From NCBI RefSeq assembly GCF_002874965.1, contig NZ_CP025624.1, positions 1,736,001-1,800,000 of the forward strand: 64,000 nt of DNA, read 5' to 3'. Position 1 is the stretch's first letter. The number at the start of each line of letters is the position of its first letter. The notes under the pieces were generated by a model. The model saw nothing but the letters and a program-made list of their open reading frames with translations. It was not told where the DNA came from and did not search any database. This document shows positions 22,118 through 32,442 of this stretch, in pieces. A program made the translations under genes and the position numbers. This DNA comes from Pseudomonas sp. NC02 (GTDB lineage: Bacteria; Pseudomonadota; Gammaproteobacteria; Pseudomonadales; Pseudomonadaceae).

Positions 22118-23440
22118 CTACATGCTGCCTTCCACATCATCCAGGCTGAACGTCTCGGTATGGTCGTCATAGGAGAAGATCTCCGCATACCGCCCCCAGG
22201 CCACCACGCTTTCCAGGGTTTTCTCCACAAAGGCTTCCGTCATCGAGTCTTCCAGTTCCTGCTCGAAGCGCACCCGTGGCGCCCGGTGGCCGCTGCGCTC
22301 AAGCAACACCTGGTGAATGCGCGCGGCCAATGGCACGTGGCGGATCAAGTGTTCGGCGAACAGGGTTTTACGCTCCTGGGTGCCGTAGTCGGCGAACAGT
22401 TTGCCGGCATCGGTCAGGGTGATATCGGCACCCTTGAGTTCGGCGAAGCCCAAATGCTCAAGCATCTCCGCCACCGGGAACAGATCGTCGACTTCCAGCA
22501 AACGCCGTTCAGCCACGGTCGGCAGGCCGGCGTGGCCATTGTAGGGCTCGGCGGCCAGGGTTTCGATCAGGCCAGCCATCAGGTTGGTGGAGACTTCCGG
22601 CAACAGGCTGCCCATTTTCAGCTCAGGCAAACCTCTGCTCGCGTCGGCGCTGCGGCGGTCGGTCATCAGGGCGTAGATGTCGTCGACCATTTGCCGGAAG
22701 GTCGGGTCCAGGCGGTTGCGCGGGTGGGCAAACGGCACCTTGATCTCGGCCACCACCCGGCCAGGGTTGGACGACAGCACCAGGATGCGGTCGCACATCA
22801 GCACGGCTTCTTCGATGTTGTGGGTCACGATCAGGATCGACTTGATCGGCAGTTGCTTGCCGCTCCACAGATCCAGCAGGTCGGTGCGCAGGGTTTCGGC
22901 GGTGAGTACGTCCAGCGCCGAGAACGGTTCGTCCATCAGCAGCAGGGTCGGGTTCACCACCAGCCCGCGGGCGAAACCCACGCGTTGGCGCATGCCGCCG
23001 GACAGTTCGCGCGGGTAGGCGTTTTCAAAACCGTCCAGGCCGATCAGGTCGATGGCCGCCAGGGCGCGCCTGCGGGATTCCTTGCGCTCGACCTGCAAGG
23101 CTTGCAGGCCGGCCTCGACGTTTTCCAGCACGGTCAGCCACGGGAACAGCGCGAAGGTCTGGAACACCATGGCCACGCCTTCGGCCGGGCCGGTGAGTGG
23201 CGCGCCGTTGTAGCGCACTTCGCCCGACGACGGCTGAATCAGCCCGGCGATGATGCGCAGCAAGGTCGACTTGCCCGAGCCGGACCGGCCGAGCATGCCG
23301 ACAATCTCGCCTTCGTGCAGGCTCAAGTTCACGCCGCTGAGGACTTGCAGCTCGTCTTTACCTTTGCCGAACACCCGGTTCACGTTTTTCAACGAGTAGA
23401 TTTCCGGAGTGTCGGCGGCATGCTCGGTATAGGTAGTCAT
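22118..23440 (-). CDS. ABC transporter ATPase with C-terminal AAA-associated domain (nitrate/sulfonate type)
   Basis: A 440-residue ATPase. Walker A is GRSGSGKST, the signature LSGGMRQRVGFARGLV, and Walker B LLLMDEPFSALD, all in the first 190 residues. About 180 extra C-terminal residues form the AAA-associated winged domain found on some nitrate/taurine-family ATPases. The start at 23440 (MTTYTEH) follows GGGACTCGC; an in-frame ATG at 23455 overlaps the permease stop by one base. It pairs with the fused permease just upstream. No periplasmic binding protein is encoded next to it. Confidence 0.88.
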   Translation of the reverse strand: MTTYTEHAADTPEIYSLKNVNRVFGKGKDELQVLSGVNLSLHEGEIVGMLGRSGSGKSTLLRIIAGLIQPSSGEVRYNGAPLTGPAEGVAMVFQTFALFPWLTVLENVEAGLQALQVERKESRRRALAAIDLIGLDGFENAYPRELSGGMRQRVGFARGLVVNPTLLLMDEPFSALDVLTAETLRTDLLDLWSGKQLPIKSILIVTHNIEEAVLMCDRILVLSSNPGRVVAEIKVPFAHPRNRLDPTFRQMVDDIYALMTDRRSADASRGLPELKMGSLLPEVSTNLMAGLIETLAAEPYNGHAGLPTVAERRLLEVDDLFPVAEMLEHLGFAELKGADITLTDAGKLFADYGTQERKTLFAEHLIRHVPLAARIHQVLLERSGHRAPRVRFEQELEDSMTEAFVEKTLESVVAWGRYAEIFSYDDHTETFSLDDVEGSM

Positions 23441-23454
23441 CACAGCGAGTCCCA

Positions 23455-25200
23455 TCAATTCAGACGAAGTTTGTTTTCAGCCATGGCGTACATCGGCCGC
23501 CACACAGCGCGGTTGAACGCCACCACGAAGATCGACATCACCACCACGCCCAGGGCGATCTTCGGGAAGTCGCCGGCCGCGGTGGTCTGGGCGATGTAGG
23601 CGCCCAGCCCGTGGGCGACCACGTTGTCGTGGCCCCAGGACACGTACTCGGACACGATACTGGCGTTCCAGGCACCGCCCGAGGCGGTAATCGCGCCGGT
23701 GACGTAGTACGGGAAAATCCCCGGCAGCATCACCTTGCGCCACCACAACCAGCCGCGAATGCGGAAGTTGGCGGCGGCTTCCTTGAAGTCATTCGGGAAC
23801 GCGCTGGCTCCGGCGATCACGTTGAACAGGATGTACCACTGGGTGCCCAGCACAATCAGCGGGCTCAGCCAGATATCCGGGTTGAGGTTGTAGTGCAGGA
23901 TCACGATGACGAACACCGGGAACAGCAGGTTCGCCGGGAAGGCCGCGAGGAACTGCGCCAGCGGCTGGATCTTTTCCGCCAGGGCCGGGCGCAAGCCGAT
24001 CATCACGCCCAGCGGCACCCAGATCAGCGAGGCGATCAGGATCAGGCCAGCCACACGCAGCAGCGTGATGAAGCCCAGCACAAATACGTGGCCGACTTCG
24101 GCCAGGGTCACTTCGGTGCCGACGTACTGCACGATGTGGTACAGCGCATAAGCGGCCAGCAGCGCGATGAGTGCGCCCCATACCCAGTCGATCACTTTTG
24201 ACGCTTTCGGGGTTTCTGCCGGCAGCGCCTTGAGTGCACCGCCCGCCAGGCTGAAGCGCTTGTTGCCAATGCGGCTGATGGCGCGGGTGACAGGCCGCAG
24301 GACGCGCTGGACGATGCGCGTGCGCTGGATCAGGTTCAGCAGCCAGGATTGCGGCGCGGCACCCTGGGAGGCGGTGGTCTCCATGCGGAACTTGTCGGCC
24401 CAGGCCACCAGTGGGCGGAACAGGAACTGGTCGTACATCAGGATGACCACAATCATCGCCAGGATCACGTAGCCCACGGCGTGCAGGTCTTTCTGGGCAA
24501 TCGCCAGGGCCAGGTATGAGCCCACGCCCGGCAAGGTGATGGTCTTGTCGCCGACGGTAATGGCCTCGGAGGCGACCACGAAAAACCAGCCGCCGGACAT
24601 GCTCATCATCATGTTCCACACCAGCCCGGGCATGGCGAAGGGTACGTCGAGCTTCCAGAACCGCTGCCAACCGGAAAGCCGCAGGTTGGTCGACACTTCC
24701 ACCAGGTCATGGGGCAGCATGCGCAGCGACTGGTAGAAGCTGAACGTCATGTTCCAGGCCTGGCTGGTGAAAATCGCAAAGATGGCCGCGAACTCCGCGC
24801 CGAGCACACGCCCGGGGAACAGCAGCAGGAAGAACGTCACCGTGAACGAGATGTAACCCAGTACCGGTACCGATTGCAGGATGTCGAGCACGGGCACCAG
24901 CAGTTTCTCGGCGCGCCGGCTTTTGGCGGCCAGGGTGCCGTACAACAGGGTGAACACCAGCGCTGCAACCATCGCCGCCAGCATGCGCATCGTGGTGCGC
25001 ATCGCGTATTCCGGCAGGTTGGCCGGGTCCAGCGAGATCACTTCACTCTGCAGGGTGGCGATAGGCGCCCAGGTTTCCCGCGCAGTGATGGAGAAAAACA
25101 GTAAAAAGCCGATCACCAGGGGCAGGGCGACCAAATCCCAGCGGTTGGGTAGCAAGCGCAATGTGGATGCAGGGATGTAGTGACGGAACACTCTTTTCAT
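23455..25200 (-). CDS. Double-length ABC permease (two BPD-type halves in one chain)
   Basis: A 581-residue membrane protein containing two binding-protein-dependent permease domains in tandem (about 70-290 and 370-570), each with an EAA-like loop (SLRMLPHDLVEVSTNLRLSG; GASAFPNDFKEAAANFRIRG). One chain could therefore form the whole membrane channel. It overlaps or abuts the ATPase gene and is the first gene of the pair. Nitrate, sulfonate or bicarbonate-like substrates are usual for the family; the substrate here is unknown. The 227 bp upstream carry no gene. Confidence 0.88.
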   Translation of the reverse strand: MKRVFRHYIPASTLRLLPNRWDLVALPLVIGFLLFFSITARETWAPIATLQSEVISLDPANLPEYAMRTTMRMLAAMVAALVFTLLYGTLAAKSRRAEKLLVPVLDILQSVPVLGYISFTVTFFLLLFPGRVLGAEFAAIFAIFTSQAWNMTFSFYQSLRMLPHDLVEVSTNLRLSGWQRFWKLDVPFAMPGLVWNMMMSMSGGWFFVVASEAITVGDKTITLPGVGSYLALAIAQKDLHAVGYVILAMIVVILMYDQFLFRPLVAWADKFRMETTASQGAAPQSWLLNLIQRTRIVQRVLRPVTRAISRIGNKRFSLAGGALKALPAETPKASKVIDWVWGALIALLAAYALYHIVQYVGTEVTLAEVGHVFVLGFITLLRVAGLILIASLIWVPLGVMIGLRPALAEKIQPLAQFLAAFPANLLFPVFVIVILHYNLNPDIWLSPLIVLGTQWYILFNVIAGASAFPNDFKEAAANFRIRGWLWWRKVMLPGIFPYYVTGAITASGGAWNASIVSEYVSWGHDNVVAHGLGAYIAQTTAAGDFPKIALGVVVMSIFVVAFNRAVWRPMYAMAENKLRLN

Positions 25201-25427
25201 AGGCAGTCATTCCTGCAGCGTTCAGGTTCAGGGGCGTGATGGGAGTGAGCTTAGCTGCTGCACGAATGACCCACCGAGAAGGGCGGGCGCTGTTTTCGCG
25301 AGTCAGGGGCAACGAGGCGTTGCTGGCGGGATTGTACGTTTCTGAATGTTACAAGCGCATAAATTTGCTGTCAGTTTCCTGTACGAACGGCGACTAGGGC
25401 GTCGGCGCCCCGGTCGTCGCTCGGCGG

Positions 25428-26156
25428 TTATTCAAACCGCAGGATCACCCTGCGATTGTGTTTGCTCTTCTTCTCGATTTTTTCGCAGAACACCCGGCCG
25501 ATTTCCTCGGTATTGGTCACATGGGTGCCGCCGCAGGGCTGGATATCGATCCCGGCGATTTCAATCACCCGTACTGCCCCCTGGATGACCGGTGGCGCCA
25601 CCGCCTGGGTGCGAGTGATCTGCAGCAGGGTTGAATACTCCGAGGCGGGCATGGACAGGGTTTTCACCCCATGAGCCTGTTCGATCAAGGCATTGAGGTC
25701 ACGGGTGATGGTCTCTTTGTCGAGGGTCATTTCCGGCAGGTCGAAATCCAGGCGGCCCTTGTCGGCGCCGATACTGCAACCGGTCACCGGAGCGTCGATG
25801 ATCGAGCACAGGAGGTGCAGGCAGGTGTGCATTTTCATGTGCTGGTAGCGACGTTCCCAGTCCAGGCTGGCGTCTACCTGCATCCCGGCGGCCAGTTGCT
25901 CGGGGCAGTGTTCTACCTGGTGCCAGATGATCGAGCGCAGCACCGGGTCACGCACGGTGCCGGTGATGTCGACGCGGCTGCCGTCGGGCAGGATGAAATG
26001 GCCGGTGTCCCCCGGTTGGCCGCCGCCGGTGGGGTAGAACAGCGTGTGCTCCAGGGCGATTCCCTGTTCGCTGACGGCAATCACCCGCGCACTGAAGGCA
26101 TTTTGGTAAGGCGCGCTGTCGAACAGCGCGAGGGTTTCCATGGTGTGCACGGACAT
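25428..26156 (-). CDS. alaX: AlaX-type trans-editing protein
   Basis: A 242-residue AlaX-M homologue, related to the editing domain of alanyl-tRNA synthetase. The zinc ligands are MHTCLHLL (HxxxH) and PCGGTHVTN (CxxxH), and the GGGQPGDTG segment is conserved. AlaX removes wrongly attached amino acids, usually Ser or Gly, from tRNA(Ala). The ATG at 26156 has GGAGG six bases upstream and follows the acetyltransferase stop by two bases. As last gene of an amino-acid-making operon with an exporter, it may protect translation from the operon's own product. Confidence 0.9.
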   Translation of the reverse strand: MSVHTMETLALFDSAPYQNAFSARVIAVSEQGIALEHTLFYPTGGGQPGDTGHFILPDGSRVDITGTVRDPVLRSIIWHQVEHCPEQLAAGMQVDASLDWERRYQHMKMHTCLHLLCSIIDAPVTGCSIGADKGRLDFDLPEMTLDKETITRDLNALIEQAHGVKTLSMPASEYSTLLQITRTQAVAPPVIQGAVRVIEIAGIDIQPCGGTHVTNTEEIGRVFCEKIEKKSKHNRRVILRFE

Positions 26157-26158
26157 GT

Positions 26159-27151
26159 TCAACCTCCGACGATCAGTGGGCTGGCTTGCAGCAGGCGACG
26201 AACCATCGCGCTCAAGCCAGGAGGAGATAGCAGGGTGATTTCAAATTCGGGCCCGGTCACTTTCAGGTTCAGCGGCAGGCGCGGCGGGTAGGCGTTGGTT
26301 TCGATGTGCCGCAGGCGGAATTGCAGGTGATGACGTTCCTTGACTGTCGGCTCCAGCAGCAGGCCGGGCAGGGGATGAAAGTCAGCGTCCAATACCGTCA
26401 CCTTGTGGCTGGCGTTGACTTCGCCCACCACGTGCAGGCGTTCGTCGAGGGCAAACGCGCCGAGGTAATTGCTGTGGTCCGACTCATCGTTTTTCTGCAA
26501 CTGGATCTGGTTGACCACCTTGACCTTGGTGCCGGCCGGCACGTCCTGGGTGATCACGCAGGACGGGCTGATGAACACGTTGTCGCCGATCAGCACGTAA
26601 CCGAGCACCCGTGCGCCGGAGCCGACTTCCACGTTGTTGCCCAGCCGCGGGTGGCGCTTGCCGTCCGGGTTGTTGGCGATGCCCCGGGCGCCGAGGGTCA
26701 CGCCGCAGAGGATGTAGCAGTCGTTGCCGATCTCGCAGGTTTCACCGATGACCGTGCCGTAACCGTGGTCCAGCACAAAGCGCCGGCCGATCCGCGCCGC
26801 AGGGTGAATTTCGGCGCCGGACAGGATCTTGCCCTGGTTGCTCAGCTTCAGGGCGATGGCGGAAAACACGCCGTTGTTCTTGTCCGGGAAATTCCACACC
26901 AGGTGGGCCAGGCGGTAATACAGCACGGCCTTGAACGAGGCGTAGGACTCCAGGATCAGCTCTCCGCGCCCACGGGACGCCGGGTCGCGCCAGGCATAGG
27001 CGATCAGGTCTTCGGCCACCGCCTGGGCCGCCGCCTGGATCAGCGGCGCGAGATGCGCCTCCAGCTGCTTCAACTGCGCAGGCGTAAGCGTGGTGATGAG
27101 GTGGGTGAGCAACTCATCGTGCAGTTGTTGCATGTCGATAAAGCCCCCCAT
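26159..27151 (-). CDS. Serine O-acetyltransferase-like protein with C-terminal extension
   Basis: A 330-residue CysE-like acyltransferase. Residues 1-110 match the helical N-terminal domain (AYAWRDPASRGRGELILESY). Residues 110-215 are the hexapeptide left-handed beta helix, with the active-site segment LDHGYGTVIGETCEIG; CysE has DHGTG, so a Tyr replaces the Thr. About 110 further residues (220-330) lie after the helix and do not look like the short CysE tail. The start at 27151 follows GGGGGTG. It probably acetylates serine or a related hydroxy amino acid for the synthase encoded just upstream. Confidence 0.82.
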   Translation of the reverse strand: MGGFIDMQQLHDELLTHLITTLTPAQLKQLEAHLAPLIQAAAQAVAEDLIAYAWRDPASRGRGELILESYASFKAVLYYRLAHLVWNFPDKNNGVFSAIALKLSNQGKILSGAEIHPAARIGRRFVLDHGYGTVIGETCEIGNDCYILCGVTLGARGIANNPDGKRHPRLGNNVEVGSGARVLGYVLIGDNVFISPSCVITQDVPAGTKVKVVNQIQLQKNDESDHSNYLGAFALDERLHVVGEVNASHKVTVLDADFHPLPGLLLEPTVKERHHLQFRLRHIETNAYPPRLPLNLKVTGPEFEITLLSPPGLSAMVRRLLQASPLIVGG

Positions 27152-27173
27152 GGAGGCACCCCCGCAATAGTTG

Positions 27174-28103
27174 TTATTCAAAACAGGGCAGATAGCTGTC
27201 GGCACTGTCGTAGACCATGGTCAGCACGACGGTGTCGGTGGGCAGCTCCGGCGCCAGCTTGGCGATGGCTACCATGTTGGCGGCCGACGACAGCCCGAGG
27301 CTGATGGCGTCGGTGCGCATGATGCGTTTGATCATGTCGAGGCATTCCTGGCGCGACACCTTGAGCATTCCGTCAATGATCGCGACGTTGAGAATGCTCG
27401 GGATCAAGCCGATCGACAGGCCCTGGATATGGTGCGGCGCATGGCGGTCGCTGAGCAGGTCGCACTCTTCCGGCTCCACCCCCATCACGCGGATCGCCGG
27501 CCAGGTGCTCTTGAGGGTTTCGCCGATGCCGGTGATATGGCCGCCGGTGCCGATGCCGCTGACGAAGTAGTCCACACGCAGCTCGCCGAAGGCGCGGATG
27601 ATTTCCCGGGCGGTGGTGTCACGGTGGGTCTGCGGGTTGGCGCCGTTGCGCTGCTGGTTGAGCATCACGTAGCTGGGGTTTTCCAGCTGCAGCTCCATGC
27701 ACTTTTCGCCGTGGGAATTGTTGCCCAGGCGGCTGTCCGACAGCACCACCCTGGCGCCGTACAGGCGCAGCAGTTTCTGCTTCTCGGGGCTGTAGTTGTC
27801 GGGGATCACCAGCACCACTTTGTAGCCCAGCACGTTACCGGCCATCACCAGGCCGATGCCGGTGTTGCCGCCGCTGGGCTCAATGATGGTTTGCCCTGAG
27901 CCACGAATCAGAATGCCCCGGCGCTCGGCGTCGAGGATCATGCCCAGGGCGATGCGTGCCTTGTGGCTGCCGCCGGGGTTGAGGGATTCCAGCTTGGCGT
28001 AGACCTCGATGCCGAGGTCTTCGGAAAACTGTTCCAGGCGCACGATGGGCGTTTGGCCAATGGCGTCGAGTATCGAGTTATGCAACATCAAGTAAGAGCC
28101 CAT
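27174..28103 (-). CDS. Cysteine synthase-like PLP enzyme, divergent active site
   Basis: A 309-residue fold-type II PLP enzyme close to O-acetylserine sulfhydrylases (DAIGQTPIVRLEQF). The PLP lysine is K48 in NPGGSHKAR, where CysK has SxKDR. The substrate loop reads EPSGGNTG instead of EPTSGNTG, and the phosphate loop is GIGTGGHITG. These changes suggest another donor or acceptor, as in CysM/CysO systems or SbnA-like enzymes. It starts 9 bp after the JAMM-E1 fusion gene. An internal ATG at 28088 (MLHNSIL) is an equally possible start. Confidence 0.85.
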   Translation of the reverse strand: MGSYLMLHNSILDAIGQTPIVRLEQFSEDLGIEVYAKLESLNPGGSHKARIALGMILDAERRGILIRGSGQTIIEPSGGNTGIGLVMAGNVLGYKVVLVIPDNYSPEKQKLLRLYGARVVLSDSRLGNNSHGEKCMELQLENPSYVMLNQQRNGANPQTHRDTTAREIIRAFGELRVDYFVSGIGTGGHITGIGETLKSTWPAIRVMGVEPEECDLLSDRHAPHHIQGLSIGLIPSILNVAIIDGMLKVSRQECLDMIKRIMRTDAISLGLSSAANMVAIAKLAPELPTDTVVLTMVYDSADSYLPCFE

Positions 28104-28112
28104 GGCCGCTGA

Positions 28113-29972
28113 TCAGTACAAAGGCATGTCGGGTTCGACGTCGCGAACCCAGTGTTTCATGCCACCTTGCAGTACTTTGGTGTTGGCGAATCCGGCGGCC
28201 AGCAAGGTGCTGGCGGCTTGCTCCGCGCGGGTCCCGGCGTAGCAGATGAGGTAGTGGGTGTTGTCGCGGCTGAGGTTGGCGAGTTGCCCGTCGAGCTCGG
28301 CCAGCGGGATGTGCACCACCCCCGGCAACTTGCACACTTCCAGCTCGCTGGCGTCCCGCACATCCAGCAGTACGTCGGCCTTGCTGTGTTGCTCGAGCAG
28401 TTGCTTGAGCACCCGCGGCTTGATGTAGCGTTCTTCGGCCAGGGAAGGTTGGCTTGGCAGGGCGTCGGCGCAGACGGCGGGGGCGATGGTTTGGCTGTGG
28501 CGCAGTTCCGAGCAGCAAGGGCAGTCGGCGCGGCGCTTGAAGCGGATCTCGCTGAACTTCATCGCCAGCGCATCAAAGCGCATCAGCCGGCCCGAGAGTG
28601 GTTCGCCAATGCCGATCAGCAGCTTGATCGCCTCGGTGGCCTGGATCATCCCGACCACCCCGGGTAATACGCCGATGACCCCGCCGGCGCTGCAGTTGGG
28701 CGCCAGTTCCGCCGGTGGTGCCTGGGGAAACAGGCAGCGATAGCACGGCCCGCCTTTATAGTTGAGCACGCTGATCTGCCCGTCGAAGCGGTAGATGGCG
28801 CCGTACACCAACGGCTTGCCCAACTGCACGCAAGCGTCGTTGACCAGGTAGCGGGTTTCGAAATTGTCGGTGCCGTCGATCACCAGGTCATAGGCGCCCA
28901 CCAGTTCCAGGGCGTTGTCGGTGTTGAAGGCGGTGTCGTAGGTGTTGATCTGGATGTGGCTGTTGAGGTCCTGCAAGCGCTGCTTGGCGGACTCGACCTT
29001 GGGCAGGCCCAGGGTGCTGTTGCCGTGGACGATCTGGCGTTGCAGGTTGCTGCTTTCCACCACGTCGAAATCCACCAGCCCCAGGGTGCCGATGCCGGCT
29101 GCCGCCAGGTACAGGCTGATGGGCGAACCGAGGCCGCCGGTGCCGATGATCAGCACGCGGGCTTTCTTCAGGTTCAACTGGCCTTCGCGGCCGACGCCGG
29201 GCAGGGTGATGTGGCGCACGTAGCGCTGCACTTCTTCGTTGCTCAGTTGGTCGACGTCCATGCCGCCGGAGGTGGCCAGCAACACTTCGATTTTGGCTTT
29301 TTCGGGCAACCGGTCGTTGGCGTCGATCAGTTCCTCTTCGGCGGTGAACAGGAAGTGTTCCTTGAGCTGGTTGTTCTCGTAGAGCAGGTGCGCCCGCAAT
29401 TGCGGGTGCTCGATGCAGAGGTTTTCAATGACTTCGCGCAATGTCGATCCGGCACCCTCGAGGGTCGATGCTGGCAGCTTGGCCACGCGGACCAGGATGT
29501 CGGGGAAAGAGACAGCGTTCATGCACAACTCCGTTTGCAGGTCGTTGAAGGGGTTTTGGGCGAAACGTTTGCCATCCCAGGCAAACAGCTTGGAACCTTG
29601 GGTCTTGCCCTGGCGAACATCCACCACCAGGTAACTTACGGGGTAGATCGGCTCGCCCATGAAGAGGGCCTTGTCCTGGTCTTCGTCGCTGAAATACGCG
29701 CCGACGTCAGGGTGGGAGTGGTAGATCACCACCACCGGGTTATCACCGCGAAACGCCTTGTTCATCATCAGCGTGTCGGCCACCGAAAAGGTGTAGCCGT
29801 TGGCGGCGCTGCGTGGATACATCTCGGGGTTCTTGCGGTGCAGCTCGTTCTGGATGTTGCTGCCCAGGTACACGCTGCCATCGGCGAAAACGAAGCCGCA
29901 GCATTCCTCGGGGTAGCTGCGGTCGGCGTGGGCGTAGATCTGCTCCAGTGCGCTTGGGCTCAGGACCTTCAT
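28113..29972 (-). CDS. JAMM protease - ubiquitin-like carrier - E1/MoeB - rhodanese fusion
   Basis: One 619-residue chain with four modules. Residues 1-147: JAMM/Mov34 metalloprotease with E22/E23, H85-S-H87-P, S95 and D98. Residues 151-237: a MoaD/ThiS/CysO-like beta-grasp domain starting MNAVSFPDILVRVAKLP and ending LLATSGG (G236-G237). Residues 238-about 490: an E1/MoeB adenylyltransferase with GTGGLGSP, zinc pairs CYRC and CPCC, and the cysteine in PNCSAGG. The C-terminus is a rhodanese with CYAGTRAEQ. Separate proteins of these kinds make protein thiocarboxylates for cysteine (CysO/Mec in mycobacteria) and siderophores. The Gly-Gly is internal, so cleavage after G237, perhaps by the JAMM domain, would be needed. 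The ATG at 29972 starts one base after the exporter stop. Confidence 0.88.
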   Translation of the reverse strand: MKVLSPSALEQIYAHADRSYPEECCGFVFADGSVYLGSNIQNELHRKNPEMYPRSAANGYTFSVADTLMMNKAFRGDNPVVVIYHSHPDVGAYFSDEDQDKALFMGEPIYPVSYLVVDVRQGKTQGSKLFAWDGKRFAQNPFNDLQTELCMNAVSFPDILVRVAKLPASTLEGAGSTLREVIENLCIEHPQLRAHLLYENNQLKEHFLFTAEEELIDANDRLPEKAKIEVLLATSGGMDVDQLSNEEVQRYVRHITLPGVGREGQLNLKKARVLIIGTGGLGSPISLYLAAAGIGTLGLVDFDVVESSNLQRQIVHGNSTLGLPKVESAKQRLQDLNSHIQINTYDTAFNTDNALELVGAYDLVIDGTDNFETRYLVNDACVQLGKPLVYGAIYRFDGQISVLNYKGGPCYRCLFPQAPPAELAPNCSAGGVIGVLPGVVGMIQATEAIKLLIGIGEPLSGRLMRFDALAMKFSEIRFKRRADCPCCSELRHSQTIAPAVCADALPSQPSLAEERYIKPRVLKQLLEQHSKADVLLDVRDASELEVCKLPGVVHIPLAELDGQLANLSRDNTHYLICYAGTRAEQAASTLLAAGFANTKVLQGGMKHWVRDVEPDMPLY

Positions 29973-29973
29973 C

Positions 29974-30924
29974 TCAGTTTTTCTTCGCCAGGAGCTTTTC
30001 GATGGGCAGCTTGGTGATGGCAAAGCCGGCCAGCAGGATCGCCGAATACATCATCAGGTCCCTGGAAATCTGCACGCCCTCGTACCAGGCCCCGATGATC
30101 ACCGCGAACACCGGGAAGATGATGAACACGAAGGACAAAATGATCGGGCTCAGGCGCTTGAGCAGCATGAAATACACGATAAAGCCGCCCACCGAGGCCA
30201 CCAGCCCGAGGTAGAACAGCGCACTCCAGGAACGCAGGGTGATGTCTTCAAAGGTCGGGGTTTCAAACCACAGCCCGGCGACAAACAGCATCAACCCGGC
30301 GATGCCGATGGGCAGGGTGTTGTAGGTGATCACGCTGATGGCACTGCCTTGTTTCTTGGTAATCACGTAGCACAAGGCATGCATGATCGCCGCAGCGAGG
30401 ATCGCCAGCACGCCGAAGAACTCGGCGTGGTCCAGGTGCAGGCCCTGGCTCTTGATGATCATGTACAGGCTGCCGAACCCGATGGCGATGCCGATCACCT
30501 GGGAAAAGTAGATGCGCTCGCGCAGGAACAGCGCGGAGAAAATCAGGATAAACACCGGCATGCAGCTGAACAGCAGCGCGGTGAGGCCGGACGAGACATG
30601 CATTTCGCCGTAGTTGAGCAGGTAATACGGAACGCTGAAGTAGGACAGCGTCACAAACACGAAGAACCAGCGGCTTTCCCGGGGAAACAGGATCGGCTCG
30701 CGGCGCACCCAGGCGAAACACAGGAACAGCGGAAACGCGATCAGGAACCGCAGCCCGGCGGAGGTCAGCGGTGGCACGCTTTCCACGGCGATCTTGATGC
30801 CCAGCCAGGTAGTGCCCCAGCTGAGACACACGATCAGGAACATCACACTGGTAATCAGCCCGGCCAACCACTGCTTGTGAGTTTTTGTTTTTCCAGCATT
30901 TTCGAGAACGGCGGACATTGGCAT
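29974..30924 (-). CDS. EamA/DMT-family exporter
   Basis: A 316-residue membrane protein with about ten helices in two EamA repeats (LSWGTTWLGIKIAVESVPPL near the N-terminus; a repeat from about residue 165). DMT exporters such as YdeD and RhtA release cysteine pathway metabolites and amino acids. It is the first gene of the sulfur-transfer operon and divergent from the MocR regulator 90 bp away, so it probably exports the operon's product. The start could be the ATG at 30924 or 30918. Confidence 0.9.
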   Translation of the reverse strand: MPMSAVLENAGKTKTHKQWLAGLITSVMFLIVCLSWGTTWLGIKIAVESVPPLTSAGLRFLIAFPLFLCFAWVRREPILFPRESRWFFVFVTLSYFSVPYYLLNYGEMHVSSGLTALLFSCMPVFILIFSALFLRERIYFSQVIGIAIGFGSLYMIIKSQGLHLDHAEFFGVLAILAAAIMHALCYVITKKQGSAISVITYNTLPIGIAGLMLFVAGLWFETPTFEDITLRSWSALFYLGLVASVGGFIVYFMLLKRLSPIILSFVFIIFPVFAVIIGAWYEGVQISRDLMMYSAILLAGFAITKLPIEKLLAKKN

Positions 30925-30971
30925 CGTGACATTGCTTCCATGAGACCGAATTGACCTCTATATTGAGTGCC

Positions 30972-30985
30972 GTGATTCGGTGATT
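30972..30985. promoter_or_regulatory. Candidate MocR direct-repeat site
   Basis: Within the 90-bp divergent region, GTGATT occurs twice in the same orientation (30972-30977 and 30980-30985). MocR proteins often bind direct repeats between their own gene and the target operon. The repeat is short and could be chance. Confidence 0.25.
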
Positions 30986-31014
30986 GAACCCGTAAAAGCA
31001 CACTATTAGGGCGA

Positions 31015-32442
31015 ATGATGGCTGTCAAAACAAATATTGACATGGTGTCAATTATGCGAGAAGGACTCTCCAACGGGCAGGGCGTGAAGTACAAGCGCCT
31101 GTCCGATGTCATGGAGCGAGGCATCCTTGAAGGCTTGATTGAACCGGGAAGAAAACTGCCGCCTCATCGGGTGCTTTCCGACAATCTGGGGGTCACCATT
31201 GGCACCATCAGCCGCGCCTACGGCGAGCTGGAACGCCTGGGGCTGGTAGTGGCGCGGGTCGGCGACGGTACTTTCGTACGCAAGCGTGGGATGGAGCGCC
31301 AGCGGGATGAAGGCTTTCGCAACTTCAGCGACGAGCCGCGGCAATACTTTGATATGAGCCGCAACATGCACATCCCCGGGCAGGAGACCACGTTCCTGGC
31401 CCAGAGCTTCCAGACGCTGGCGAACAACGCCAAGTTCTTGCAGGACATCAGTGCCTACACCCCGGATGCCGGGCTGCCGCGTTACCGGGCGGCGGGTGCG
31501 CAGTGGCTGGTGCAGCGGGATTTCCACCCGATTCCCGAGCAGGTGATTTGCGTGAACGGCGGCCAGCATGGGTTGCTCTGCGCAATGATGGCGCTGTTGC
31601 GAGCCGGTGATACGGTGGTGACCGAACAGTTGACCTATCCAGGGTTGATCACCGCCGCGCGCATGCTGGGCATCCGCCTGATCGGCCTGGAAATGGATGA
31701 AGAAGGGCTGCTGCCGGGGGCGCTGGATGAAGTCTGCCGCAATCACCGGGTGTCGGCGTTGTACTGCACGCCGACCATCCAGAATCCTACGACAGCGGTG
31801 CTATCGGTCCCGCGCCGTGAGGCATTGGTGAAGGTCTGTCGGGAACACAACCTGCTGATTCTCGAGGATGAGGCCCACGGTGTGCTGGTGGAAGACCGTC
31901 CGCCGCCCCTGAGTCATTTTGCCCCGGAGCGTACGATTCTGATCAGCAGCCTGAGCAAGGCGGTATCGGCAGGCTTGCGCGTTGGGTACGTGCATGCACC
32001 GCCGGCGCTGGTCAGCCGGATTTCTGCGGCCTTGCGTTCCACCTGCTGGATGGCCACGCCGGTCACCCTGGAACTGGCGACCCAGTGGATCGAAAACGGC
32101 ACGGCGGAACACCTGTTGCACCAGCAGATCCAGGAAATCAGCCGCCGCAAGGCACTGGTGGAAGGTTTGTTGATCGGGCTGGAGTACCGCACTCACCTGA
32201 ACAGCCCGCACTTCTGGATCGAAGTCCCGGAGCCATGGCGCGCGTCGGAAATCGAAGCGGAGTTAAAGCAGAACAATTACCTGATTGCGACAGCCGAAGC
32301 GTTCGCGGTGGGGCAGACGGCGGTGCCGCAATTCATTCGGGCGAGCATCTGCAATACGTCGGGGGATGATCAGTTGCTGCTGGATGGGTTCGATGCGCTG
32401 GCGACGGCGCTGGGGCAGGGTGGGGGGCGGTTTCACCTGTGA
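31015..32442 (+). CDS. MocR-type GntR regulator with aminotransferase-like domain
   Basis: A 475-residue protein. The GntR winged helix (about 20-90) contains LPPHRVLSDNLGVTIGTISR and the rest is a fold-type I aminotransferase-like domain. Its PLP lysine is in SSLSKAVSAGLRVGYV, and EDEAHGVLVEDRPPPLSHF carries the Asp-type PLP contact. MocR proteins sense PLP or an amino compound bound to it. Divergent position and the operon's amino acid enzymes make it the likely regulator. The start is uncertain: tandem ATGs lie at 31015 and 31018, and another at 31042. Confidence 0.92.
   Translation: MMAVKTNIDMVSIMREGLSNGQGVKYKRLSDVMERGILEGLIEPGRKLPPHRVLSDNLGVTIGTISRAYGELERLGLVVARVGDGTFVRKRGMERQRDEGFRNFSDEPRQYFDMSRNMHIPGQETTFLAQSFQTLANNAKFLQDISAYTPDAGLPRYRAAGAQWLVQRDFHPIPEQVICVNGGQHGLLCAMMALLRAGDTVVTEQLTYPGLITAARMLGIRLIGLEMDEEGLLPGALDEVCRNHRVSALYCTPTIQNPTTAVLSVPRREALVKVCREHNLLILEDEAHGVLVEDRPPPLSHFAPERTILISSLSKAVSAGLRVGYVHAPPALVSRISAALRSTCWMATPVTLELATQWIENGTAEHLLHQQIQEISRRKALVEGLLIGLEYRTHLNSPHFWIEVPEPWRASEIEAELKQNNYLIATAEAFAVGQTAVPQFIRASICNTSGDDQLLLDGFDALATALGQGGGRFHL

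Follow-up and report, generated by a model that had tools for sequence, protein, structure and literature searches.

A predicted CysO-like sulfur-carrier pathway of Pseudomonas with an extreme gene fusion, a retained internal start and a Gly-Gly-tailed acetyltransferase

A gene of Pseudomonas sp. NC02 joins in one frame a JAMM metalloprotease, a ThiS/MoaD/CysO-like carrier, a MoeB/ThiF-type E1 and a rhodanese, and it lies in a conserved cassette that we read as a CysO-like sulfur-carrier pathway of Pseudomonas, with an extreme fusion, a retained internal start and an acetyltransferase ending in Gly-Gly. In the reading that we favor, at a probability of roughly 55%, the operon makes cysteine or a close relative by thiocarboxylate chemistry like that of CysO/CysM/Mec, the chain gene yields two products, and the JAMM domain cuts after Gly237. 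The observations beneath this reading are the domain content, its conservation, the fixed gene order, a single late JAMM fusion and a start conserved at the nucleotide level. The earlier note on this DNA knew of no assigned function for the chain, which was too pessimistic: the fixed neighbors, a CysK-like enzyme and a serine acetyltransferase, indicate a pathway of the CysO/CysM/Mec type.

The Cassette and Its Chain Gene

The window (the whole 64,000-nucleotide stretch that was analyzed) holds a divergent regulator and a run of minus-strand genes that includes the chain:

31015..32442, plus strand: MocR-type (GntR-aminotransferase) regulator, divergent (Pfam; 80/80 loci)
29974..30924, minus strand: EamA-family exporter (Pfam EamA)
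29972 down to 28113, minus strand: four-module chain gene, 619 codons and stop
27174..28103, minus strand: CysK/CysM-like PLP enzyme, loop EPSGGNTG (Pfam PALP; 80/80 loci)
26159..27151, minus strand: serine O-acetyltransferase (CysE/EpsC type) with C-terminal extension (cysE model; start picked by conservation)
25428..26156, minus strand: AlaX-type alanyl-tRNA editing protein (AlaXM, 200.5 bits, below the cut-off of 300)

The plus strand over 28113-29972 carries an in-frame stop; the open frame is that of the minus strand, where the uninterrupted 619 codons of the earlier note are confirmed, in a genome consisting of one 6.89 Mb contig. The chain's nearest named matches come from Pseudomonas yamanorum and relatives. 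Comparisons cover 80 named loci, each from a different genome record. These are the best 80 of the 158 JAMM-carrier relatives among 194 pattern matches; because the other 78 were left out, the share of fused forms is biased towards the query. The chain is fused and intact in 64 of these loci, fused with a frame break in three (L067, L079 and L084) and split in 13. Could the fusion frame be an artefact of assembly or gene calling? The three breaks, and a further one in genome G586, would suit such an origin, but 64 intact frames from separate records and a host genome in one contig refute it, leaving it practically no probability.

The cassette is compact and its composition constant. The stop of the upstream exporter gene, on the same strand, lies one base from the chain ATG, and the gaps from the chain through the CysK-like, acetyltransferase and AlaX genes are 2 to 22 bases with the starts as chosen. 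The MocR, EamA, chain and CysK-like genes are present in 80/80 loci, as are the acetyltransferase and AlaX genes, with the same order and strand in 79; in Paraburkholderia L089, the last two are nearby on the other strand, and AlaX is only 30% identical. A carrier, a JAMM domain and a cysteine synthase stand together in one operon, the CysO/CysM/Mec combination, in all 80. Elsewhere the host genome encodes further cysteine synthases, 35-38% identical, and further acetyltransferases, 38-43% identical, so the cassette is an additional pathway.

What would this pathway make? The best model for the CysK-like protein is cysKM (295.5 bits, below the 344.15 cut-off), and the acetyltransferase reaches 147.9 bits with the cysE model (cut-off 210.65). 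In place of the EPTSGNTG that the host's own enzyme (L157) carries, the CysK-like loop reads EPSGGNTG, so the reaction may use another nucleophile or give another product; among the solved relatives, O-ureidoserine synthase 3x43 ranks second. The same relay may thus end in an exported thio- or beta-substituted alanine, with AlaX clearing mischarged tRNA-Ala, a tentative reading that overlaps with the main one. Besides the altered loop, it draws on the exporter and AlaX in all 80 loci (the divergent AlaX of L089 included) and on the other cysteine enzymes that the host owns; however, the cassette shows no enzyme for further elaboration, cysKM remains the top-scoring model for the CysK-like protein, and the specificities of EamA and AlaX are not readable from sequence.

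Behind the cassette, at 22118-25200 on the minus strand, lie a two-permease-domain ABC transporter and an ATPase with an AAA_assoc_C domain; the pair is seen in only part of the 80 loci, namely ones that extend far enough. The one promoter candidate in 25300-31100, at 25374 on the minus strand behind AlaX, was not assigned because shuffles give 1.1 promoter-like sites.

Modules of the Chain

Three of the four modules are recognized directly by Pfam, and the fourth, the carrier, by marginal profiles and an AlphaFold model; the identities proposed in the earlier note were right for all four.

29553..29972, minus strand: JAMM/JAB metalloprotease domain, residues 1-140 (Pfam Prok-JAB; invariant metal residues)
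28503..29249, minus strand: MoeB/ThiF-type E1, residues 242-490 (Pfam ThiF; 1jw9 match; invariance)
28143..28409, minus strand: rhodanese domain, residues 522-610, loop CYAGxR with Cys577 (Pfam rhodanese; Cys577 in 65/65)

In the Pfam scan of the chain, Prok-JAB covers residues 7-119 (E 2.4e-16, over the cut-off), ThiF 251-486 (E 6.5e-83) and rhodanese 522-610 (E 1.3e-14); in the PDB, the JAMM domain matches 2kcq_A (E 1.9e-9) and the E1 module 1jw9 (E 3.3e-61). The E1 carries GTGGLG, NLQRQ, GTDNF, Cys427 and CxxC pairs at 410/413 and 484/487, so that the chain has the adenylating site, both CxxC pairs, the E1 cysteine and the rhodanese cysteine of a MoeB/MoeZ/Uba4-type E1-rhodanese, residues that presumably keep their usual roles here. 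Among the 25 NCBIfam matches listed, the chain exceeds the cut-off for subfamily NF004281 only. The AlphaFold model of the whole chain has a mean pLDDT of 62.1: only the carrier and some of the E1 and rhodanese are modeled well, and the JAMM domain and Gly-Gly junction are mostly below 50; Foldseek matches it best to Uba4, MoeB and ThiF.

The JAMM motif E-HxH-x7-S-x2-D is present as E23, H85, H87, S95 and D98. These five residues, Ser235-Gly236-Gly237, Asp239, Cys427 and Cys577 are all identical in 65/65 intact fused genes, that is, the 64 loci plus the window copy, which are related rows and not independent. The earlier note had left the metal-site glutamate as E22 or E23; since residue 23 is kept in all 65 and residue 22 is E in 63 and D in two, E23 is the likelier one, and the remainder of the proposed site stands. 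Residue 238, just behind the Gly-Gly, is M in 49 genes and I in the other 16.

A Carrier With an Internal Gly-Gly

29262..29522, minus strand: ThiS/MoaD/CysO-like carrier, residues 151-237, ending LATSGG (profile searches and AlphaFold)
29262..29267, minus strand: internal Gly236-Gly237, followed by [M/I/L]-D and the E1 N-terminus (ATSGG in 81/81 loci)

The carrier is not detected by the whole-chain Pfam scan. Taken alone, residues 151-237 reach 22.4 bits with ThiS, a marginal score just below the cut-off of 22.5, and also match SAMP1 and MoaD_arch, each below its own cut-off; a search of the PDB with a profile built from 16 carriers retrieves the ThiS/MoaD protein 4n6e_B (E 0.0016). The structure prediction that the earlier note had called for gives, over residues 151-232, the order strand-helix-strand-helix-helix-strand-strand with block pLDDT values of 70-88, an order that fits a beta-grasp fold. 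The terminal LATSGG is unchanged in 16/16 aligned carriers, though carrier identity falls to 49%.

Could the carrier be one that is conjugated to target lysines and removed by the JAMM domain, as in SAMP/desampylase systems? The nearest named models do point that way (SAMP1 for the carrier, desampylase for the JAMM domain), and such chemistry has been argued where JAB and E1 co-occur, in the text of Iyer et al. (2006; PMC1779556). However, both scores are far below their cut-offs (21.7 against 60 bits and 31.5 against 130 bits), the neighbors belong to amino-acid and sulfur metabolism, export, regulation and tRNA editing, the chain contains a rhodanese, and none of the ten proteins scanned at the locus gave an E2-like match, all of which makes conjugation very unlikely.

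The position of the Gly-Gly, internal and followed by residue 238 and an E1 N-terminus, was correctly described from the single sequence and proves general. The sequence ATSGG-[MIL]-D is found in 81/81 readable loci (the 80 named ones and L007), by a pattern that itself demanded GG; of 82 loci tried, only the window's own, L001, went unmatched, although the window sequence reads SGGMD at this point. Carrier and E1 share one frame in all 86 loci read (in L084, the carrier part contains a frame break). The ancestral and invariant unit is carrier-GG-[MIL]D-E1 as one polypeptide (81/81 loci). In a further locus, L116 (G586:C1), the frame is broken exactly at the Gly-Gly junction (around bases 2140-2210) and the second Gly is lost, which may be decay or an assembly error.

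Adenylation and thiocarboxylate formation on ThiS/MoaD carriers require a free C-terminal glycine carboxylate. In 81/81 loci, the Gly-Gly is internal, and the chain would present the C-terminal Gly-Gly of such carriers only if it were cleaved after Gly237. Because a free carboxylate is needed, we infer that cleavage after Gly237, also in trans, is the best chemical explanation for a conserved internal Gly-Gly beside a JAMM domain.

The opposite possibility is that the carrier is never released: the fused ubiquitin-like domain would dock on or regulate the E1, and the sulfur would be carried by the cell's own ThiS/MoaD or by a Gly-Gly tail on the operon acetyltransferase. The single frame for carrier and E1 in all 86 loci is in keeping with this, as are the ThiF proteins with a fused N-terminal ubiquitin-like domain, which typically stand beside standalone ThiS genes and for which the text of Iyer et al. 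(2006; PMC1779556) suggests a different role. Yet a docking domain would need neither an invariant LATSGG nor a dedicated JAMM domain, and we consider permanent retention doubtful.

Fused and Split Forms

The earlier note offered a self-processing polyprotein as one explanation. Cis-cleavage, with protease and substrate in one chain, could describe the fused forms only: the JAMM gene is separate in 13 of the 80 named loci, Vreelandella and Paraburkholderia among them, as well as in L007 (genome G028) and the more distant L160. In split loci, the JAMM stop lies just ahead of a Shine-Dalgarno sequence and the ATG that starts carrier-E1-rhodanese. A quick tree was built from 14 split sequences and 25 of the 65 fused ones, with two MoeZ-type proteins as outgroup. 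In it, the fused forms form a single clade (SH-aLRT 98) and split L093 is their sister; the remaining split loci, including Vreelandella and Paraburkholderia, fall outside, L089 of Paraburkholderia on a long branch. As far as these sequences tell, the JAMM fusion is a single late event that joined two ordinary genes. Split loci and tree together rule out cis self-processing as the ancestral mechanism; the other half of the proposal, that the JAMM domain frees the carrier, stays the best chemistry, and this cut would be made in trans, at least in part, because JAMM is ancestrally separate and an internal start would give copies without JAMM.

More distant loci suggest how the internal Gly-Gly arose. 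L160, L161 and L162 were taken from class-sample genomes among the matches listed. L160 keeps the cassette order (JAMM, carrier-E1-rhodanese, CysK-like, acetyltransferase, AlaX), with a separate JAMM gene and a carrier-E1 frame that contains IATSGG; the assembly shows breaks in the E1 and CysK frames of this locus, and the 2.1 kb ahead on the same strand hold no frame above 200 codons, hence no EamA. In L161, a carrier gene ends SGG-stop directly ahead of an E1-rhodanese gene, and in L162, one ends AGG-stop directly ahead of an E1 gene; since both carriers end GG-stop before an E1, the internal Gly-Gly probably descends from a C-terminal one. From sequence, the order of events reads as a free carrier beside an E1, then a carrier-E1 fusion that kept the Gly-Gly, then the JAMM fusion in one clade.

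A wide distribution is rejected. Carrier matches occur in 62 of 298 genus genomes (48 of them strong, counting the own genome, and 14 with weak matches alone) and in 8 of 398 genomes of a phylum sample, where six are strong, all from the same genus with the own genome included, and two are weak, from other genera; the acetyltransferase extension is found in the same 6/398. A class sample matched in 275/321 genomes, nearly all through E1 alone.

Plasmid carriage of the JAMM-carrier part was likewise rejected, with two distant matches in 72,556 plasmid records, neither covering 80%; the CysK-like protein matched 532 records, all below 60% identity. One of the two distant matches (L159, on the mobilizable plasmid pACIB of Aliarcobacter cibarius) adjoins a cysteine synthase gene and has a MoaD/ThiS gene nearby; this group, which includes an M67 metallopeptidase gene, is interrupted by IS elements.

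A Conserved Internal Start, Probably Still in Use

29520..29532, minus strand: internal Shine-Dalgarno GGAG (29532-29529) and Met151 ATG (kept in 65/65 fused genes)

If the JAMM domain was added late, what became of the start of the second gene? GGAG precedes the Met151 ATG in 65/65 intact fused genes (six-base gap in the window), and the other in-frame start candidates with a Shine-Dalgarno sequence, at residues 105, 266 and 605, are kept less, in 41, 47 and 28 of the 65. Codon 147 varies in its residue (T, M or A) with a third base that is always G, and codon 148 is always GAG, so that GGAG is preserved. Codons 142-153 show 0.055 of the expected synonymous change, the lowest (rank 1) of 608 chain windows; among inner windows of the EamA, CysK, acetyltransferase, AlaX and MocR genes, 0 of 1542 fall to 0.15 or less, the minimum being 0.352 (overlapping windows beyond codon 15 in the same loci and related rows, with only 38 of 65 rows for CysK).

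Constraint at start sites is not uniform, since the first 12 codons retain 0.62-1.53 of the expected synonymous change in the EamA, chain, CysK, acetyltransferase and AlaX genes, but 0.0 in MocR. The low rate near Met151 could also have another cause, because a second stretch, codons 174-185 (codons 175-183 at window 29424-29450, minus strand), is almost free of synonymous change in the 65 genes; no RNA structure was found for it. RNA structure at the internal start itself was rejected, folding there being no better than in shuffles. The separate carrier-E1-rhodanese gene of split loci begins with a similar Shine-Dalgarno sequence and ATG. Judged by this conservation, the old second-gene start at Met151 is probably still in use, and a carrier-E1-rhodanese protein without JAMM is probably made beside the full chain.

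The Acetyltransferase Tail

26162..26515, minus strand: conserved beta-sandwich extension with a flexible tail ending Val-Gly-Gly (AlphaFold mean pLDDT 81.4)

The acetyltransferase extension, about 110 residues, is modeled as seven strands and one helix followed by a flexible tail, and has no Pfam match and no sequence match in the PDB. This topology led us to reject the extension as another carrier of the beta-grasp type; comparing profiles of extension and carrier gave no match, and the best Foldseek matches are weakly immunoglobulin-like (best E 0.02, none below 0.001).

The C-terminus (26162-26167, minus strand) ends [VIL]-Gly-Gly in 78 of the 79 named sequences that have the extension: a pattern read 77 of them, 76 with GG and L052 with RG, and L086 and L087 were read separately. 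No Gly-Gly end occurs in the CysE-model proteins of relatives (0/30, the best 30 listed) or in the host's second acetyltransferase, L156. This contrast speaks for a never-released carrier with sulfur on the acetyltransferase tail; against it, the acetyltransferase Gly-Gly is missing in L089 and L160, where the chain Gly-Gly is still present. Because L089 has no extension and L160 has one that ends NNNP, a general role of this Gly-Gly is disfavored. In ordinary cysteine synthase complexes, the acetyltransferase tail plugs the CysK active site; as speculation, the tail here could serve the E1 as a second substrate or help the acetyltransferase dock on the CysK-like enzyme.

The Proposed Pathway and Its Relatives

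How might the parts work together? In the favored reading, the chain would be the sulfur-relay part of an operon dedicated to cysteine or a close relative. One gene would give the full chain and, from Met151, carrier-E1-rhodanese without JAMM, and JAMM domains, at least partly in trans, would cut after Gly237 to free the carrier C-terminus. The E1 would adenylate this C-terminus, and the rhodanese and E1 cysteines would pass sulfur to it, forming the thiocarboxylate. The acetyltransferase would supply O-acetylserine and the CysK-like enzyme would convert it to aminoacrylate, which the carrier thiocarboxylate would attack; JAMM would then release the resulting carrier-linked cysteine. EamA may export the product or a precursor, and AlaX may guard tRNA-Ala. 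From the observations listed at the outset, we infer the two proteins, the cleavage, the thiocarboxylate, the cysteine product and the roles of exporter and AlaX. A bolder version, which we think unlikely as a whole, has the two products set by a selected internal start, a single JAMM site that both matures the carrier and releases the amino acid, with GG-[MIL]-D imitating carrier-Gly-Gly-Cys, and an acetyltransferase Gly-Gly that is a second E1 substrate, the tail bringing thiocarboxylate sulfur into the CysK site.

In the CysO/CysM/Mec system of Mycobacterium tuberculosis, the thiocarboxylate on a free carrier donates sulfur and a JAMM protein releases cysteine. The cassette likewise has carrier, JAMM and cysteine synthase in one operon, with the chemistry predicted; it differs in that the carrier is fused to E1-rhodanese and, in one clade, to JAMM, and in the added acetyltransferase, exporter, AlaX and MocR regulator. 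A precedent for an internal Gly-Gly is MoaX of M. tuberculosis, a fused MoaD-MoaE that is cleaved after its own Gly-Gly and reported to need this cleavage; here, too, a carrier with internal Gly-Gly is fused to a partner, although the MoaX partner and pathway differ. In thioquinolobactin synthesis (QbsC/D/E), a JAMM protein trims the residues behind the GG of QbsE. PdtF/G/H of PDTC form a comparable set of E1-rhodanese, JAMM and ThiS-like carrier (Iyer et al., 2006; PMC1779556). The chain has the same three kinds of module, but in both of those systems they are separate proteins with acyl-AMP ligase partners, and the cassette instead has the CysK-like enzyme and acetyltransferase. In two other Pseudomonas loci, L008 and L009, separate E1-rhodanese, JAMM and carrier frames lie beside an aminotransferase-like frame; by eye, these clusters are PDTC/QbsC-like.

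The earlier note took JAMM-carrier-E1 fusions to be known in outline from comparative genomics; what the text and Table 1 of Iyer et al. (2006; PMC1779556) already contain is the unfused operon type and the proposal that JAB may free fused ThiS/MoaD carriers. The CysO/CysM/Mec operon is type 4d there, and type 4c, listed for P. aeruginosa and others, combines ThiS/MoaD, E1-rhodanese, JAB and cysteine synthase. The cassette shares these four activities beside a cysteine synthase, but the type 4c table row notes only the E1-rhodanese fusion, in contrast to the chain, and the term "serine acetyltransferase" has 0 occurrences in the text of PMC1779556, figures apart.

As a natural test case, the cassette could show how an internal Gly-Gly carrier matures, since one genus offers both split and fused forms for comparison. 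It is also a clear example of two genes that were fused while the start of the downstream gene seems to have stayed under selection, and it hints at a serine acetyltransferase whose own tail may bear sulfur.
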